The notes under the pieces are model-generated. The model did no database searches and was not told the DNA's origin. It was given only the letters and a program-made list of their open reading frames with translations. The position numbers were made by a program, and so were the translations under genes. DNA of 64,000 bases. Source: Janthinobacterium psychrotolerans. Its GTDB lineage: Bacteria; Pseudomonadota; Gammaproteobacteria; Burkholderiales; Burkholderiaceae_D. Positions 29,132 through 50,880 of this stretch are shown here, piece by piece. Positions within the stretch are counted from its first letter, which is position 1; the number at the start of each line of letters is the position of its first letter. The stretch is taken from positions 124,001-188,000 of the forward strand of contig NZ_LOCQ01000059.1 in NCBI RefSeq assembly GCF_001677885.1, given 5' to 3'.

Positions 29132-29270
29132 GATGATCCTTGTGTCCGTGTTGGGTTGTCGCCATAGCGGAAAAGCCGCCGCTTGACCGGTGTGCGCCGC
29201 ATGCTGTACCGTGGGGCGCTGTTCGGAGTGCAGTGTACAGTTTAACGCTTTTCCCGAGCCACTTCCGAAA

Positions 29271-29304
29271 TCCACTATGTCGAACTGAAATTCAATATAG
29301 TGGA
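29271..29304. promoter_or_regulatory. inverted-repeat operator candidate between kbl and the XRE-cupin gene
   Basis: TCCACTAT (29271-29278) and ATAGTGGA (29297-29304) are perfect 8-bp arms 18 bp apart, in the 212-bp divergent gap. Placement suggests binding by the adjacent regulator, controlling both directions. Confidence 0.5.
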
Positions 29305-29343
29305 TATTACCCAAGCCGATTGAACTTTGCAAGCCAACTGCCG

Positions 29344-29919
29344 ATGAAAACCAGTGTTTCGACCAATTCTCCGCCCGAAGTCGGCGCCACCTTGCAACGG
29401 CTGCGCCTGGCGCGCGGCCTGACACTGGAGGATTTGTCGCGCATCGCGGGGGTCTCGAAGTCCATGCTGTCGCAGATCGAACGCGAAAAAGCCAACCCCA
29501 CCATCGCCATTACCTGGCGCCTGGCCAATGCGCTGGGCGTGCAGATCGGCGAATTGCTGTCCAGCGCGGAAAAAGCCGTGGAAACCATCCGCGTCACCGA
29601 CGCCCACGAGACCCCTACCCTGCCCGGCGACCATGCCGGCTATGTGCTGCGCATCCTGGGGCCGATGGAACTGGCCGGCAAATACGAATGGTATGAGGTG
29701 ACCCTGGCGCCGGGCGGCGAGCTGGCCTCGCAGCCGCACGACCCGGGCACCACCGAGCACCTGACTGTACTGCACGGCAACCTGGAACTGGAAGTGGGGA
29801 CGGCGAAGAAAAAGGTCAAGAACGGCGGCACGGCGCGCTATCCGGCCGACTTGCCGCATACCATCCGCAACCTGGGCAAGACCGAAGGCAAGGCATTATT
29901 GGTGGTGATCCACCGATAG
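29344..29919 (+). CDS. XRE-family transcriptional regulator with cupin domain
   Basis: A 191-residue regulator. The N-terminal helix-turn-helix (residues ~12-66) shows LQRLRLARGLTLEDLSRIAG and SKSMLSQIEREKANPTIAIT. The C-terminal cupin (~110-190) shows LAPGGELASQPHDPGTTEHL and HTIRNLGKTEGKALLVV and probably senses a small ligand. The ATG at 29344 is the conserved start. It is divergent from kbl-tdh, with an inverted repeat between, so it likely controls threonine or serine breakdown. Confidence 0.9.
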   Translation: MKTSVSTNSPPEVGATLQRLRLARGLTLEDLSRIAGVSKSMLSQIEREKANPTIAITWRLANALGVQIGELLSSAEKAVETIRVTDAHETPTLPGDHAGYVLRILGPMELAGKYEWYEVTLAPGGELASQPHDPGTTEHLTVLHGNLELEVGTAKKKVKNGGTARYPADLPHTIRNLGKTEGKALLVVIHR

Positions 29920-30010: not shown

Positions 30011-30937
30011 ATGACGATTTCCGAAAGTACCACCCTCTTCCACAAGAAAAAGGTCGTCCAGTACGATCCTGATATCGCGCTGCAACCTGGGCAGGATATC
30101 GTCTACCGCCTGTCACTCGACTATGACGACAAACGCAAGATGCCGGACCTGATTGCCGGCTTCCTGGAAAAAGCCGACAAGCATGCGCTCGAGGCGCTGA
30201 TCATCGGCATGTGGGGCGATCCGTACGAAGCAGGTGCCGATGAAGTGATCGCCGCGCTGGCCAGCCACGCGCCGCAGCTGCCCAACGTGCGCGCCCTGTT
30301 TATCGGCGACATGACGTATGAGGAATGCGAGATTTCGTGGATCGTGCAAGGCAGCTACAAGCCACTGCTGGACGCGTTCCCGCAGCTCGAAGAGCTGCGC
30401 ATCCGTGGCGGCAATGAATTGAGCCTCGATGCGTTCGCGCACCAGAACCTGCGCAAGTTCACCATCGAGTCCGGTGGCCTGGACCAGAAAATCGCCCAGG
30501 CACTGAGCCAATCGAGCATGCCGAAGCTGGAACACCTGGAACTGTGGCTGGGCACCGACGACTACGGTTTTTCCGGCGACGTGGCGCTGTACCGGAAGGT
30601 GCTGGCGCAGCTGGCCACGCCGACCCTGCGCTACCTGGGCCTGCGCGATGCGCATATCGCCGACGAGCTGGCTGCCTGGCTGGCCAACGAGCCGCTGCTG
30701 GCGACCGTCGAAACACTGGATCTGTCACTGGGCACCTTGGGCGACATCGGCGCCGAAGCACTGCTGCAAGGCACGCAGTTGGGCAATCTGAAGCGCATCG
30801 ACCTGTCGCACCACTACATCTCGGAGGCGAACCAGGAAAAACTCAGGGCGCTGCCCTTCGAGGTGGTGCTGGACGATCCGCAGGAAGACGACGAGGACGA
30901 CGGCGAAGTCTATCGCTACGTGGCCGTCGGCGAGTAA
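30011..30937 (+). CDS. STM4015 family protein (leucine-rich repeat)
   Basis: A 308-residue soluble protein with leucine-rich repeats from about residue 115 on (FPQLEELRIRGGNELSLDAF, MPKLEHLELWLGTDDYGFS, TLRYLGLRDAHI, VETLDLSLGTLGDIG, LKRIDLSHHYIS). The N-terminus opens STTLFHKKKVVQYDP. The C-terminus is an acidic linker (DDPQEDDEDDGE) followed by VYRYVAVGE. GGAG lies before the ATG. It is the first gene of a five-gene set matching the conserved STM4015 to STM4011 families, whose function is not known. It may be scaffold or substrate for the others; that is inference. Confidence 0.88.
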   Translation: MTISESTTLFHKKKVVQYDPDIALQPGQDIVYRLSLDYDDKRKMPDLIAGFLEKADKHALEALIIGMWGDPYEAGADEVIAALASHAPQLPNVRALFIGDMTYEECEISWIVQGSYKPLLDAFPQLEELRIRGGNELSLDAFAHQNLRKFTIESGGLDQKIAQALSQSSMPKLEHLELWLGTDDYGFSGDVALYRKVLAQLATPTLRYLGLRDAHIADELAAWLANEPLLATVETLDLSLGTLGDIGAEALLQGTQLGNLKRIDLSHHYISEANQEKLRALPFEVVLDDPQEDDEDDGEVYRYVAVGE

Positions 30938-30943
30938 GTGCCG

Positions 30944-32020
30944 ATGATATTGCTGGCCACCAAAGGCAGCAAGCGCGTGCGCCTGCTGCAGGCGGCGCGT
31001 GCGCAGCGTGACCTGCCGCCAGCGCGTGTGCTCGAATGGCGCGACTGGCTGGCCGAACCGGCCTTGCTCGACGCGGCCCTGAAAACCCCATGCCTGTTCA
31101 AGATCGAGCCGCCTGGCGACGATGCGCTGGCGCAGCTGCAGCTGCTGCACGACGGCTGCCGCCTGCTCGAGCGCGCACCGGTGAGAGCGCCCGAACATGG
31201 CGAACTGCTGGCCATGGACGCCTGGTTTGCCGGCTTTTCCGCCGCCATGCGGCGCCTGTCGATCCGGCTCGCCGCCCTGCCGCAGGCGCGCGTCGTCAAC
31301 GCCCCCTCAGAGATCACCCTGATGACCGACAAGCTGGCCTGCCAGGGCCACCTGGCCGGACACGGCGCGGCGATCCCCGCGCTGCTGGGACGTATCGACA
31401 GCTACGATCATTTGCAATCGCTGCTGCAGCAGCACGATCTTGACCGGGTCTACCTGAAACCGCGCTATGGCTCCTCCGCCTCGGGCGTGGTGGCCTACCG
31501 CAGGAACAGGAGCGGGCGCCAGCAGGCGACCACGTCGGCCAGCATCGTCCACACAAATGGCGAAACCCGGCTGTTCAATGTCAAGCGCATGGTGCGCCAT
31601 GAAAGCGCCGCCGAGATCGCCACACTGGTCGACGCGCTGGCGGCGCAGGAACTGTATGCGGAAGCCTGGCTGGCCAAGCCGCGCTGCGGCGACAGCCATT
31701 ACGACCTGCGCGTGGTGGCCATCGCCGGCCAGCCCGCGCACCGGGTGGCGCGCCTGGGCAGGCAGATGATGACCAATCTGCACCTCGACAATCGGCGCGG
31801 TGACGCCGCGACGCTATTGAACGAGGCCGACATGGCCGCGCTGGACGCCACCGTGCTGCAGGCGGCGCGCGCCTTTCCCGCCAGCGGCGTGGCCGGCTAC
31901 GACCTGGTGGTGCGCCGGGGCCAGGCGCATGTGCTCGAAGCGAACGCCTTTGGCGACCTGCTGCCTGGCTTGCTGTGGCGCGGCCTGGACACCTATGGAT
32001 GGCATATGCGCGATGCCTGA
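30944..32020 (+). CDS. STM4014 family protein (ATP-grasp-like)
   Basis: A 358-residue protein with an ATP-grasp-like layout. It has TLMTDKLACQGHLAGHG, the lysine/Gly-rich loop VYLKPRYGSSASGVVAYRR (~residue 165), AEAWLAKPRCGDSHYDLRVV and a C-terminal DLVVRRGQAHVLEANAFGDL with the Mg-binding Glu-Ala-Asn. ATP-grasp enzymes join a carboxylate to an amine or thiol, so it may form an amide or peptide bond. The ATG at 30944 is chosen; GTG 30938 directly after the preceding stop is possible. It is the second gene of the cassette. Confidence 0.85.
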   Translation: MILLATKGSKRVRLLQAARAQRDLPPARVLEWRDWLAEPALLDAALKTPCLFKIEPPGDDALAQLQLLHDGCRLLERAPVRAPEHGELLAMDAWFAGFSAAMRRLSIRLAALPQARVVNAPSEITLMTDKLACQGHLAGHGAAIPALLGRIDSYDHLQSLLQQHDLDRVYLKPRYGSSASGVVAYRRNRSGRQQATTSASIVHTNGETRLFNVKRMVRHESAAEIATLVDALAAQELYAEAWLAKPRCGDSHYDLRVVAIAGQPAHRVARLGRQMMTNLHLDNRRGDAATLLNEADMAALDATVLQAARAFPASGVAGYDLVVRRGQAHVLEANAFGDLLPGLLWRGLDTYGWHMRDA

Positions 32021-32852
32021 AGCCGCCATTCCCGACATGAACCTTGTCGTGGGCAGCCACGATATCGTCTTCATTACCCTCGACACCTTGCGCCACGATG
32101 TGGCGCAGGCCCTGTTCGAGGCGGGCGAACTGCCGGTGCTGGGGCGCTACTTGCCGGCCACCGGCTGGGAGCGCCGTCACTCGCCCGCCACCTTTACCTA
32201 TGCGGCGCACCAGGCCTTCTTTGCCGGCTTTTTGCCCACGCCAGCGTTGCCAGGCCGCCATCCACGCCTGTTCGCCAGCGCTTTTGCCGGCAGCGAGACG
32301 ACCTCGCCGCGCACCTTTGCTTTTGACGAGGCGAGCATTCCCGCAGCCATGGCCGTGCGCGGCTACCGCACCATCTGCATCGGCGGCGTCGGCTTTTTTA
32401 ACAAACAGACCGCCTTGGGCCGCGTGCTGCCGGCGCTGTTCCAGGAAAGCCACTGGAGACCGGCCATGGGCGTGGCCGGGCGCCATTCGACCGAGCAACA
32501 GGTGGCGCTGGCGACCCGCCTGCTGGCCGAAAACGAGCAGCGCACCTTTTTGTTCATCAACGTGGCCGCTCTGCACACACCGAACCGCGCCTACCTGCCC
32601 GGCTGCCGCGTTGATAACATCGACAGCCACGCGGCGGCGCTGCGCTATGTCGACGGCGCCCTGGCGCCGCTGTTCGCCGCCTGCGCCGCGCGCGCGCCGA
32701 CCTTTGCCATCGTCTGCTCGGACCACGGCAGCGCCTATGGCGAAGACGGTTATCGCGGCCACCGCGTGGCGCACGACAGCGTCTGGAACGTGCCGTATGC
32801 GCATTTTTTTATTGACTCTTCACACCAGCATTCCCAGGGAGCCGCACCGTGA
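32013..32852 (+). CDS. STM4013/SEN3800 family sulfatase-like hydrolase
   Basis: A 279-residue alkaline-phosphatase-superfamily-like protein. It shows IVFITLDTLRHD with the metal-binding aspartate (~residue 21), HSPATFTYAAHQAFFAGF at the usual nucleophile position (no CxPxR sulfatase cysteine), LFINVAALHTP, and CSDHGSAYGEDGYRGHRVAH with Asp and His metal ligands. It is shorter than true sulfatases and may act on a phosphate ester. The start overlaps the STM4014 stop by eight bases; ATG 32037 is an alternative. Confidence 0.82.
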   Translation: MPEAAIPDMNLVVGSHDIVFITLDTLRHDVAQALFEAGELPVLGRYLPATGWERRHSPATFTYAAHQAFFAGFLPTPALPGRHPRLFASAFAGSETTSPRTFAFDEASIPAAMAVRGYRTICIGGVGFFNKQTALGRVLPALFQESHWRPAMGVAGRHSTEQQVALATRLLAENEQRTFLFINVAALHTPNRAYLPGCRVDNIDSHAAALRYVDGALAPLFAACAARAPTFAIVCSDHGSAYGEDGYRGHRVAHDSVWNVPYAHFFIDSSHQHSQGAAP

Positions 32853-34228
32853 ATCCATCCGAACAGCCGGGCACCCTGGCGCAGCGCATGCGCCACACGC
32901 CCTACCAGGCCTACTCCTATTCCTACCCGCACAAGGCTGCCTACCGCACGCTGGCCCAAGCCACGCCGCTGGCGCCGATCTGGGCGCGGCAGGACCGCTG
33001 CGCCCTGTTTGCCTACATCCATATCCCGTTCTGCGAAATGCGCTGCGGCTTTTGCAATCTGTTCGCCATGGCGCGGCCCAGCGCCGAAATGGTCGAGCGC
33101 TATGTGCAGCAGGTGCTGGTGCAGATGCGCGCCATGGACGGCGTGCTGGGCGAGCGGCGCTTTGCCCGCTTCGCGCTCGGTGGCGGCACGCCGACCTATC
33201 TGTCGGCGGCGCAGCTCGACACCCTGCTGTGCGGCGCGCGCGATATTCTCGGCATCGATTTGCAGGCCACGCCGGCCGGCATCGAAGCCTCGCCCGAAAC
33301 CATCACGGCCGAACGGCTGGCTGTCTGCCGCGCGCACGGCATCGACCGGGTCAGCCTGGGCATCCAGAGCTTTGCCGCCGGCGAGATGCGCGCGCTGGCG
33401 CGGCCGCAGCAGAACGCCACCGTACGCCAGGCCATCGCCCTGATACGCGAGGCAGGTTTTCCGACCCTGAATCTGGACCTGATCTACGGCATCGCCGGCC
33501 AGACGGTGGCCAGCCTGCTGGCCTCGATCGACAGCGCGCTGGCGTTCCGGCCCGAGGAGATCTATCTGTATCCGCTGTACGTGCGTGAGCAAACAGGCCT
33601 GGGCAAGATCGCGCGCCGCCAGGGCGCCGATACCCTGAACCCCATCATGCTGGCGCGCGACGGCGACAGCCGCCTGACGTTGTACGCGGCCGCGCGCGAC
33701 CATCTGCGCGCACAGGGCTATGTGCAGGTCTCGATGCGCATGTTCCGCGCGCCGCATGCACCCACCGATGCCGGCCCGTCCTACTGCTGCCAGAACGACG
33801 GCATGGTGGGCCTCGGCGCGGGCGCCCGCTCGTACACCTCGCGCCTGCATTATTCGAGCGAGTACGCGGTGGCGCGCACCGAGACGATCGGCATTATCGA
33901 CAACTACCTGGCGCTGGACGAAGCGCGCTTCGCGCAGGCCGAACACGGCTATCAACTGGGGGACGAGGACCAGCGGCGCCGCTACGTGATCCAGTCGCTG
34001 CTAACCGATCCGGGCCTCGATCTTGACGCCTACACGGGCCGTTTTGGCAGCGACTGCCTGGCGGACCTGCCGCAGCTGGCCGAGCTGTTTGCGCTGGAAC
34101 TGGTCACGCAAGACGGGCCGCTGCTGCGCCTCAATGACCAGGGCTATGCCTACGCCGACACCATCGGCCCCTGGCTGGCGTCGAACACGGTGCGCGCGCT
34201 GATGGCCGAAAGCGGCCAGGCGTGCTGA
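32849..34228 (+). CDS. STM4012 family radical SAM protein
   Basis: A 459-residue HemW-like radical SAM enzyme. The cluster motif CxxxCxxC is C62, C66, C69 in AYIHIPFCEMRCGFCNLF. A GGGTPTYL motif follows, then SLGIQSFAAGEMRALARPQ and a C-terminal HemW-type region. It starts with GTG overlapping the previous stop as GTGA, with AGGGAG eight bases upstream. It resembles coproporphyrinogen oxidase-like proteins, but its place in the cassette argues for a different substrate. Confidence 0.88.
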   Translation: MNPSEQPGTLAQRMRHTPYQAYSYSYPHKAAYRTLAQATPLAPIWARQDRCALFAYIHIPFCEMRCGFCNLFAMARPSAEMVERYVQQVLVQMRAMDGVLGERRFARFALGGGTPTYLSAAQLDTLLCGARDILGIDLQATPAGIEASPETITAERLAVCRAHGIDRVSLGIQSFAAGEMRALARPQQNATVRQAIALIREAGFPTLNLDLIYGIAGQTVASLLASIDSALAFRPEEIYLYPLYVREQTGLGKIARRQGADTLNPIMLARDGDSRLTLYAAARDHLRAQGYVQVSMRMFRAPHAPTDAGPSYCCQNDGMVGLGAGARSYTSRLHYSSEYAVARTETIGIIDNYLALDEARFAQAEHGYQLGDEDQRRRYVIQSLLTDPGLDLDAYTGRFGSDCLADLPQLAELFALELVTQDGPLLRLNDQGYAYADTIGPWLASNTVRALMAESGQAC

Positions 34229-35091
34229 CGGCGCCGCAAACCATGCTGTCGCTGCTGTACCGGGGCACCCTGGCCAGCTGCAACTACGCCTGCGGCTACT
34301 GCCCGTTCGCCAAGAAGCAGGACAGCCGCGCCGCGCTGGCGCGCGATGCGCGCGAAGTCGTGCGCTTCACGAACTGGGTGGCGCGGCAGACGCGCCCCAT
34401 CGGCGTGCTGTTTACGCCGTGGGGCGAAGCGCTGGTGCGCCGTCATTACCGCTGCGCCATGCAGGCGCTGGCCGCCCTGCCTCATGTACGGCAGGTGGCG
34501 CTGCAGACCAACCTGGCCGGCCCCCTGAAATGGCTCGATGGCATGGCGGGCCTGGAAAAGATCGGTTTATGGTGCACCTTCCATCCCGGCCAGACGACGA
34601 TCGCGCGCTTTTTGGAGCGCTGCGCGCACCTCGACGCCATGGGCGTGCGCTATTCGGTCGGCGTGGTGGCGCTGCATGAACACTATGGCGCCATCGAAGC
34701 GCTGCGCGCGGCGCTGCCTGGCCACGTTTATCTGTGGCTGAACGCCTACGACCGGCGCGGTCCCGGCTATTACGCTGCCGATGACCTGCTCTGGCTCGAC
34801 AAGATCGACCCGTGGTTCGCGCAAAGCCGCCGTCCTGTCCCGTCACGCGGCAAGGGCTGCTTCGCGGGCGAGGCGGCGCTGTCGGTCGACGGCGACGGCG
34901 AACTGACGCGCTGCCATTTTTTGCCAGAGCGGCTGGGGAATCTGTACGAAGATGATCTGGCGGACATGCTGCAGGAACGCAGCTGCCCGCGCTTCAAGTG
35001 CGACTGCTATATCGGCTATGCGCAGCGCAAGGACTTGCCGTTTCAGACGGAGTTTGGGGAGGGGGTATTGGCCAGGATTGCGTCCGTGTGA
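34222..35091 (+). CDS. STM4011 family radical SAM protein
   Basis: A 289-residue radical SAM enzyme. C20, C24 and C27 in LASCNYACGYCPFAKK bind the SAM cluster. A C-terminal SPASM-like region carries GKGCFAGEAALSVDGDGELT, then RCHF, CPRFKCDCYIGYA, cysteines that may bind a second cluster as in peptide-modifying enzymes. The GTG start overlaps the STM4012 stop by seven bases, so the two are coupled. It is the last gene of the cassette and is followed by REP-like hairpins. Confidence 0.87.
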   Translation: MLTAPQTMLSLLYRGTLASCNYACGYCPFAKKQDSRAALARDAREVVRFTNWVARQTRPIGVLFTPWGEALVRRHYRCAMQALAALPHVRQVALQTNLAGPLKWLDGMAGLEKIGLWCTFHPGQTTIARFLERCAHLDAMGVRYSVGVVALHEHYGAIEALRAALPGHVYLWLNAYDRRGPGYYAADDLLWLDKIDPWFAQSRRPVPSRGKGCFAGEAALSVDGDGELTRCHFLPERLGNLYEDDLADMLQERSCPRFKCDCYIGYAQRKDLPFQTEFGEGVLARIASV

Positions 35092-35109: not shown

Positions 35110-35150
35110 GTAGGTCGGCTTAGCGCGCAAGCGCGTAAGCCGACGCCACC
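35110..35150 (+). repeat. REP-like hairpin, X-type copy
   Basis: GTAGGTCGGCTTAGCGC and GCGCGTAAGCCGACGCCACC fold into a stem around GCAA. Same architecture as 50822-50860 and 19432-19462, with compensatory stem changes (GGCTTA/TAAGCC here). Confidence 0.7.
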
Positions 35151-35159
35151 TGCGGCGTT

Positions 35160-35189
35160 AATCAACGTCAATCAACGTCAATCAACGCC
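35160..35189. repeat. three tandem 10-bp repeats between the REP hairpins
   Basis: AATCAACGTC occurs twice and AATCAACGCC once, head to tail. It forms the spacer between the X-type and Y-type hairpins. Confidence 0.8.
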
Positions 35190-35239
35190 AACAATGTTGT
35201 CGGATTACGCGGGGCTGCGCCCCGCTAATCCGACCTACC
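35190..35239 (-). repeat. REP-like hairpin, Y-type copy in inverted orientation
   Basis: AACAATGTTGTCGGATTACGC pairs with GCTAATCCGACCTAC around a GGGGCTGCGCCCC core. Read on the minus strand it begins GGTAGGTCGGATTAGC like the X copy, so X and Y are opposite copies. It lies just downstream of the prolyl oligopeptidase stop. Confidence 0.7.
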
Positions 35240-50821: not shown

Positions 50822-50880
50822 GTAGGTCGAATTAGCGCTTGCGCGTAATCCGACACCACCCATGGCGGCAACAATGTTGT
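50822..50880 (+). repeat. REP-like hairpin, X-type copy with Y-like tail
   Basis: GTAGGTCGAATTAGCGC and GCGCGTAATCCGACACCACC form a stem around TT. The tail GGCGGCAACAATGTTGT repeats the start of the Y copy. The pair order (Y then X) is the reverse of that at 35110-35239. Confidence 0.7.

Follow-up and report, generated by a model that had tools for sequence, protein, structure and literature searches.

Five plus-strand genes that abut or overlap at positions 30011-35091 of the Janthinobacterium psychrotolerans window (the whole stretch of 64,000 nucleotides that was analyzed, from a genome of 5.84 Mb) form a cassette whose first product, the leucine-rich-repeat (LRR) protein STM4015, ends in a glutamate that is invariant within the operon and lost only outside it. 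The second gene encodes a predicted ATP-grasp ligase, STM4014, and is followed by genes for STM4013, of the alkaline phosphatase superfamily, and for two radical S-adenosylmethionine (SAM) enzymes, STM4012 and STM4011. We put at about even the chance that STM4014 forms an amide bond at the C-terminal glutamate of the LRR protein and that STM4013, STM4012, and STM4011 process the attached group. A sequence-only reading of the same DNA had suggested that the leucine-rich protein itself may be modified, and this suggestion gains support because its C-terminal Glu is invariant and STM4014 appears LysX/RimK-like. The same two features make a cassette named after locus tags an answerable question.

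Glu was the last residue in 92 of 94 STM4015 matches at cassette loci in a first set from about a dozen phyla, and the two exceptions, a 28-bit nonmember (L007) and an N-terminal piece left by a frameshift (L092), were dropped from the tail counts. Among linked open reading frames (ORFs) scoring >100 bits in 89 Streptomyces stretches, 127 of 128 ended in Glu. The one that did not is the upstream half of a gene broken by a frameshift, and the second half of that gene does end in Glu and is included in the 127; linkage is unproven for L239, which reaches a contig end, and the Streptomyces and first sets share some genomes (e.g., G456 and L062). The Bacteroides finegoldii STM4015 also has a C-terminal Glu. 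The 92 proteins, which include two divergent LRR proteins scoring 84 and 89 bits at a myxobacterial cassette locus and one of 64 bits in Gemmata, share the tail R(79) Y(67) V(68) A(63) V(71) [GS](75) E, preceded by a variable acidic stretch. When 87 sequences were placed on a tree built from the LRR part, the last position required 0 Fitch steps, each of the six preceding positions 8 to 24 (24 at position -2), and positions -8 to -30 required 31 to 50. Moreover, the C-terminal residues of STM4011 to STM4014 are variable, the tail motif was found in no locus protein besides STM4015 (8441 closed ORFs of ≥60 amino acids [aa]), and only 1 of 9 distinct generic LRR proteins away from the cassette in three similar genomes, read by eye, ended in Glu.

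Outside the operon, 16 STM4015 copies were found, 10 ending in Glu and 6 in another residue. All 10 Glu-ending copies came from cassette-bearing genomes, with 2 of them lying 4 to 7 kb from the cassette, and all 3 copies from cassette-free genomes lacked the C-terminal Glu. Fisher tests on the 16 copies, uncorrected for relatedness, gave p values of 0.036 for cassette presence and 7e-7 for linked versus distant copies; without the two copies at 4 to 7 kb (Glu in 8 of 14), the likewise uncorrected values were 0.055 and 3e-7. These counts leave out a 184-aa piece ending in Glu in a Streptomyces genome (L145), where the cassette looks decayed, and a 59-bit piece beside STM4014 (L148), which also ends in Glu.

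The best Protein Data Bank (PDB) profile match of STM4014 was LysX (7.9e-8), followed by RimK (1.2e-6). Its predicted model (predicted local distance difference test score, 96.3) had as its top seven structure matches ArgX-LysW, LysX, RimK, LysX/ArgX with LysW-gamma-AAA, RimK twice, and RimK-RpsF (5zk6); glutathione synthetase, D-Ala ligase, and DcsG were also among the matches. Residues K130, K172, D320, E332, and N334 were present in 51 of 51 STM4014 sequences and correspond to the canonical K, K, D, and ExN residues, as listed in excerpts of PMC4431377. The GSWGR motif with which LysX recognizes EDWGE (PMC10433800, in the excerpts available) occurred in none of the 51. By profile and model, STM4014 is probably an ATP-grasp ligase of the LysX/RimK branch, the nearest solved relatives of which act on protein C-termini.

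Composition and inheritance of the cassette

The sequence-only reading had described five plus-strand genes with tiny gaps or overlaps in a single operon, and all five ORFs were found where it placed them. The ATG of STM4014 lies 6 bp past the STM4015 stop (an in-frame GTG also occurs at 30938), STM4014 and STM4013 overlap by 8 bp, STM4013 and STM4012 share GTGA, and STM4012 and STM4011 overlap by 7 bp; STM4011 starts with GTG at 34222 and has an alternative in-frame ATG at 34243. Membership in the STM4015 to STM4011 families was likewise borne out by a profile check, with each protein scoring above its curated NCBIfam cutoff (Table 1). The NCBIfam descriptions consist of locus-tag names only, without an assigned function. 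A survey of ATP-grasp gene neighborhoods was reportedly made by Iyer et al. in 2009. In agreement with the earlier statement that no function is established, the accessible portions of the open-licence literature give none for the cassette, and its genes appear there as table rows only.

Table 1. Features of the STM4015-STM4011 cassette (positions in the window)
Feature	Position	Strand	NCBIfam profile (bits/curated cutoff)	Remarks
STM4015, leucine-rich-repeat protein, 308 aa	30011..30937	+	STM4015 family (338.9/275)	proposed acceptor (carrier or target)
Codons of C-terminal heptapeptide RYVAVGE	30914..30934	+		last codon, 30932-30934, Glu308
STM4014, ATP-grasp ligase, LysX/RimK type (predicted)	30944..32020	+	NF038074 (323.7/175)	would couple a group to Glu308 of STM4015 (proposed)
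STM4013, alkaline-phosphatase-superfamily hydrolase or transferase	32013..32852	+	NF038075 (397.2/250)	Thr62 codon, 32196-32198
STM4012, HemN-like radical SAM enzyme	32849..34228	+	NF006067 (573.5/380)	CxxxCxxC at C62/66/69
STM4011, small radical SAM enzyme	34222..35091	+	NF038073 (356.6/200)	SPASM-like C-terminal cysteines

A one-genome-per-species scan with the STM4011 profile returned at least 456 confirmed relatives among 591 stretches, and the best 80 loci, spanning about a dozen phyla as judged from record titles, were analyzed. All five families (each >60 bits) were present at 64 of these loci fetched with a single profile, so the association is not a matter of chance, and the earlier claim that the five travel together is upheld. 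Among the 16 incomplete loci, 12 lacked STM4015 at the locus; a genome-wide follow-up covered 5 of the 12 (L039, L053, L056, L079, and L081) and placed STM4015 elsewhere in the genome, in two pieces split by a stop in the case of L081; the other seven of the 12 are L022, L057, L072, L075, L077, L078, and L088. An STM4015 match was present in all 13 genomes searched in the whole-genome follow-up. The cassette can be separated into two sub-blocks, STM4015 with STM4014 and STM4013 with STM4012 and STM4011, which are divergent or apart in L051, L052, L068, and L091.

Presence/absence profiles also confirmed co-inheritance. Among 199 Streptomyces genomes (E 1e-30), STM4011 was detected in 93, STM4015 in 92, and STM4014 in 89; all three occurred in 89 genomes, none in 103, and a mixed set in 7. 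STM4011 stood alone in four genomes, although in one of them, G558, a contig ends within reach of the cassette and carries a piece of STM4014 there. The cassette is rare yet very widespread in bacteria, occurring also in Salmonella and Bacteroides: in 150 genomes of the phylum, matches above the cutoff to STM4015, STM4011, and STM4013 came only from the genome that contains the window, and an STM4015 profile matched 3 of 295 Bacteroidia, the center included. Among the matches listed, the nearest relatives of the window's STM4011 are from Janthinobacterium, with at most 89% identity. A plasmid record of Bacteroides finegoldii (L128, 5953-8893) holds a decayed-looking cassette, with a short STM4013 match and no STM4012 annotated.

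Proposed reaction and comparison with tethered systems

In the proposed scheme, STM4014 would activate the C-terminal Glu carboxylate (alpha or gamma) of STM4015 as an acyl phosphate and then couple it to an amine carried by a small molecule. We infer that Glu308 serves as the attachment site and that the amine bears a phosphate. The radical SAM enzymes STM4012 and STM4011 would alter the tethered group, STM4013 would remove or exchange the phospho group, with help from a HAD phosphatase in some phyla, and the LRR body of STM4015 may act as the docking surface for these enzymes; the order of these steps is likewise provisional. The product would be either released, as for LysW and pearlins, or kept as a permanent modification.

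Several observations weigh against such tethering: the cassette contains no releasing peptidase, the structural margin of LysX/ArgX/RimK over glutathione synthetase for the STM4014 model is small, and the STM4015 tail is predicted to be ordered and aligns right to its end with the crystal structure of a solved relative, 2RA8. The behavior of the tail would suit a rather unlikely alternative in which STM4015 serves as adaptor or regulator while the four enzymes produce a small molecule that stays free, and the tail is a cap or docking motif whose Glu is kept for folding or binding. This alternative also draws on the 10 of 205 columns of the LRR part that are just as invariant as the last Glu and on a Streptomyces albidoflavus relative of STM4013 that sits beside radical SAM, thymidylate-kinase-like, and NUDIX genes, the annotation showing no STM4015 within 9 kb. 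However, a structural cap should persist outside the operon, yet Glu is missing in 6 of the 16 copies there; no linked copy runs past Glu, broken ones excepted; and the nearest relatives of the ligase work on protein C-termini.

The amide-forming reading gains its closest comparison from LysW/LysX (ArgW/ArgX), although the LysW system uses lysine-pathway enzymes where the cassette has radical SAM and phospho enzymes. STM4015 is a 308-aa LRR protein, to which a WGR or BRCT domain is added in some members, whereas LysW is small and carries Zn-binding Cys; the STM4015 tail reads RYVAV[GS]E rather than EDWGE, which was found in 0 of 50 STM4015 sequences, and no release enzyme was found in the cassette. 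Membership of the cassette in the lysine pathway was rejected on fold and motifs. The likeness lies in a LysX/RimK-branch ligase adjoining a carrier candidate with an invariant final Glu after an acidic stretch. LysX couples aminoadipate to the gamma-carboxyl of the C-terminal Glu of LysW, according to excerpts of PMC10433800. Pearlins (PEARL/TglA and TmoA) share amide-tethered building at a C-terminus, tmo with radical SAM chemistry as well (PMC9303977, in the part available), but the cassette has no recognized PEARL, short carrier peptide, or protease, and its ligase is of the ATP-grasp type. RimK, whose complex with RpsF (ribosomal protein S6) is among the top seven matches noted above, is also an ATP-grasp ligase acting on a protein C-terminus; in contrast, STM4015 is not ribosomal, and the cassette adds radical SAM and hydrolase genes.

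At eight loci (L036, L055, L068, L083, L105, L109, L113, and L128), STM4015 carries an N-terminal domain that we take, from a motif read by eye, to be WGR-like, and a BRCT match was found in 1 of 50 members. The Enhygromyxa genome G154 holds three separate STM4015 genes (L105, L109, and L113), all ending in GE, with STM4014 beside just one of them (1.5-kb flanks), which raises the question of several acceptors for one ligase. As a tentative extension, with rather less than an even chance of being correct, the cassette could represent a second, evolutionarily unrelated form of protein-tethered biosynthesis, in which the LRR protein would be a reusable carrier with swappable WGR/BRCT N-termini, its C-terminal Glu would hold a phosphate-bearing amine, a new metabolite would be built by the two radical SAM enzymes together with a phosphoesterase using a Thr nucleophile, and DUF6745 and an HxH...HxxH protein would be optional unloaders or users. 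If the amide-forming reading is right, an unrelated fold would join the short list of carriers holding metabolites through an amide, the rare strategy of building molecules while attached to a carrier protein would have a new version, and a metabolite or protein modification hitherto unknown would be pointed to.

STM4013 and the radical SAM enzymes

The earlier assignment of metal-binding sulfatase motifs to STM4013 needs one correction: the protein belongs to the alkaline phosphatase superfamily (Pfam Sulfatase match, 39.2 bits; cutoff, 25) but lacks the formylglycine motif at the nucleophile. D24, T62, D237, and H238 are invariant in 43 of 43 sequences, Thr62 aligns with the sulfatase Cys at the nucleophile position, and the site reads T-x-[APS]-[AS]-H in all 43; a bare C/S-x-P/A-x-R pattern occurs near the site in one sequence, by chance. 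A type I formylglycine sulfatase was ruled out by the invariant Thr at the formylglycine position. The earlier proposal of a hydrolase acting on a phosphate or sulfate ester thus loses its sulfate half: STM4013 is, by sequence, a superfamily member without the formylglycine motif, and a phospho-type reaction is likelier because Thr occupies the nucleophile position in all 43 sequences and a HAD phosphatase gene directly precedes STM4013 in 11 of the 80 loci.

It appears very improbable that the five genes form a degradative or stress pathway in which STM4013, as the entry hydrolase, acts on a compound bearing phosphate or sulfate. Such a pathway would fit the HAD phosphatase genes adjoining in other phyla and the Salmonella cassette, which sits between ompL/yih genes and typA, beside sulfoquinovose genes; however, no sulfoquinovose genes are annotated within 8 to 9 kb at the other seven annotated cassette loci, STM4013 has no formylglycine site, and two radical SAM enzymes, a ligase, and an LRR protein are ill suited to catabolism.

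Relatives of STM4013 also occur elsewhere. The S. albidoflavus relative lies on a plasmid (L004, 6866-10315) in a different operon, in the order radical SAM (weak MoaA C-terminal match), thymidylate-kinase-like, unknown, STM4013, and NUDIX, and the unannotated L015 holds a further one. A distant STM4013-like gene (24.8% identity) was found on pTi-SAKURA (L005, 6121-6867) and on Agrobacterium plasmids of about 177 to 206 kb, Ti plasmids among them.

The CxxxCxxC motifs reported earlier for the radical SAM enzymes were confirmed: that of STM4012 is invariant in 44 sequences, and that of STM4011, C20/24/27 when numbered from GTG 34222 (C12/16/19 in the alignment), is invariant in 9. The best PDB profile match of STM4012 was HemN (1olt, 5.3e-61), followed by the methyltransferase NocN (1.6e-39). 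As a coproporphyrinogen III dehydrogenase of the HemN type, STM4012 was rejected, scoring 138.4 bits against an equivalog cutoff of 324.95, which leaves HemN as a profile relative only. For STM4011, the sole PDB match at E 0.01 was the C-terminal part of SkfB (1.2e-4).

Neighboring genes and optional partners

The HAD gene lies between STM4014 and STM4013 in 8 of the 11 loci mentioned above; in Salmonella, a Cof-type HAD gene follows STM4011, and a HAD gene is near the cassette on a Deinococcus plasmid. Among neighbor families found in at least three genera (ORFs of ≥60 aa surveyed), only the HAD gene was regularly adjacent, and an ABC-like and an MFS-like gene, identified by eye, each adjoined once. 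These neighbors bear on an improbable alternative, in which the tail is the core of a ribosomally synthesized and posttranslationally modified peptide (RiPP), with crosslinks or cycles formed within RYVAVGE (graspetide-like or thioether/C-C) as a permanent modification or in an excised peptide. In the available part of PMC8939145, graspetide loci often pair ATP-grasp with SPASM radical SAM genes, a combination shared by SPASM-modified RiPPs and the cassette, and the heptapeptide is conserved, with R at position -7 in 79 of 92 tails. By contrast, the HAD gene is the sole regular neighbor, no short precursor was recognized among the neighbor ORFs surveyed, and the last Glu is the only conserved acceptor or donor residue, the six preceding positions varying so that no donor-acceptor pair is kept.

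DUF6745 and a small His-rich protein of about 100 aa with an HxH...HxxH pattern (HXH) are frequent extra partners and each occurred in 22 of the 80 loci, together in 21. A search of the genome holding the window returned neither protein, a weak test in which the controls gave no match either. HXH matches phrog_27831, of unknown function, and has no solved relative at E 1. Both proteins have fixed C-termini in the same neighborhoods (L008 to L014 and others), Asp in 28 of 28 HXH and Thr or Ala in 28 of 29 DUF6745 proteins. The sequence-only reading, whose interpretation as a whole is partly supported, could not reveal the C-terminal Glu rule, the two sub-blocks, 2RA8 as a solved relative, or the partner genes for HAD, DUF6745, and the His-rich HXH.

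A phage origin of the cassette was set aside, as the five window proteins had no PHROG match. A defense system was likewise set aside: no PADLOC family matched STM4015, STM4014, STM4013, DUF6745, or HXH, and the radical SAM proteins had one match each, PDC-M51A (8.1e-8) and DruL (8.2e-4), with partial coverage.

In the window, an HTH-cupin regulator gene (29206-29919) ends 91 bp upstream of the cassette, and a prolyl-oligopeptidase-family gene lies downstream on the opposite strand. A GTAGGTCGGNTTA-type repeat stands in two inverted copies right after the cassette (35110-35238), with a third at 50822-50838; these three matches, against 0 expected, are possibly a genus-typical repeat or terminator.

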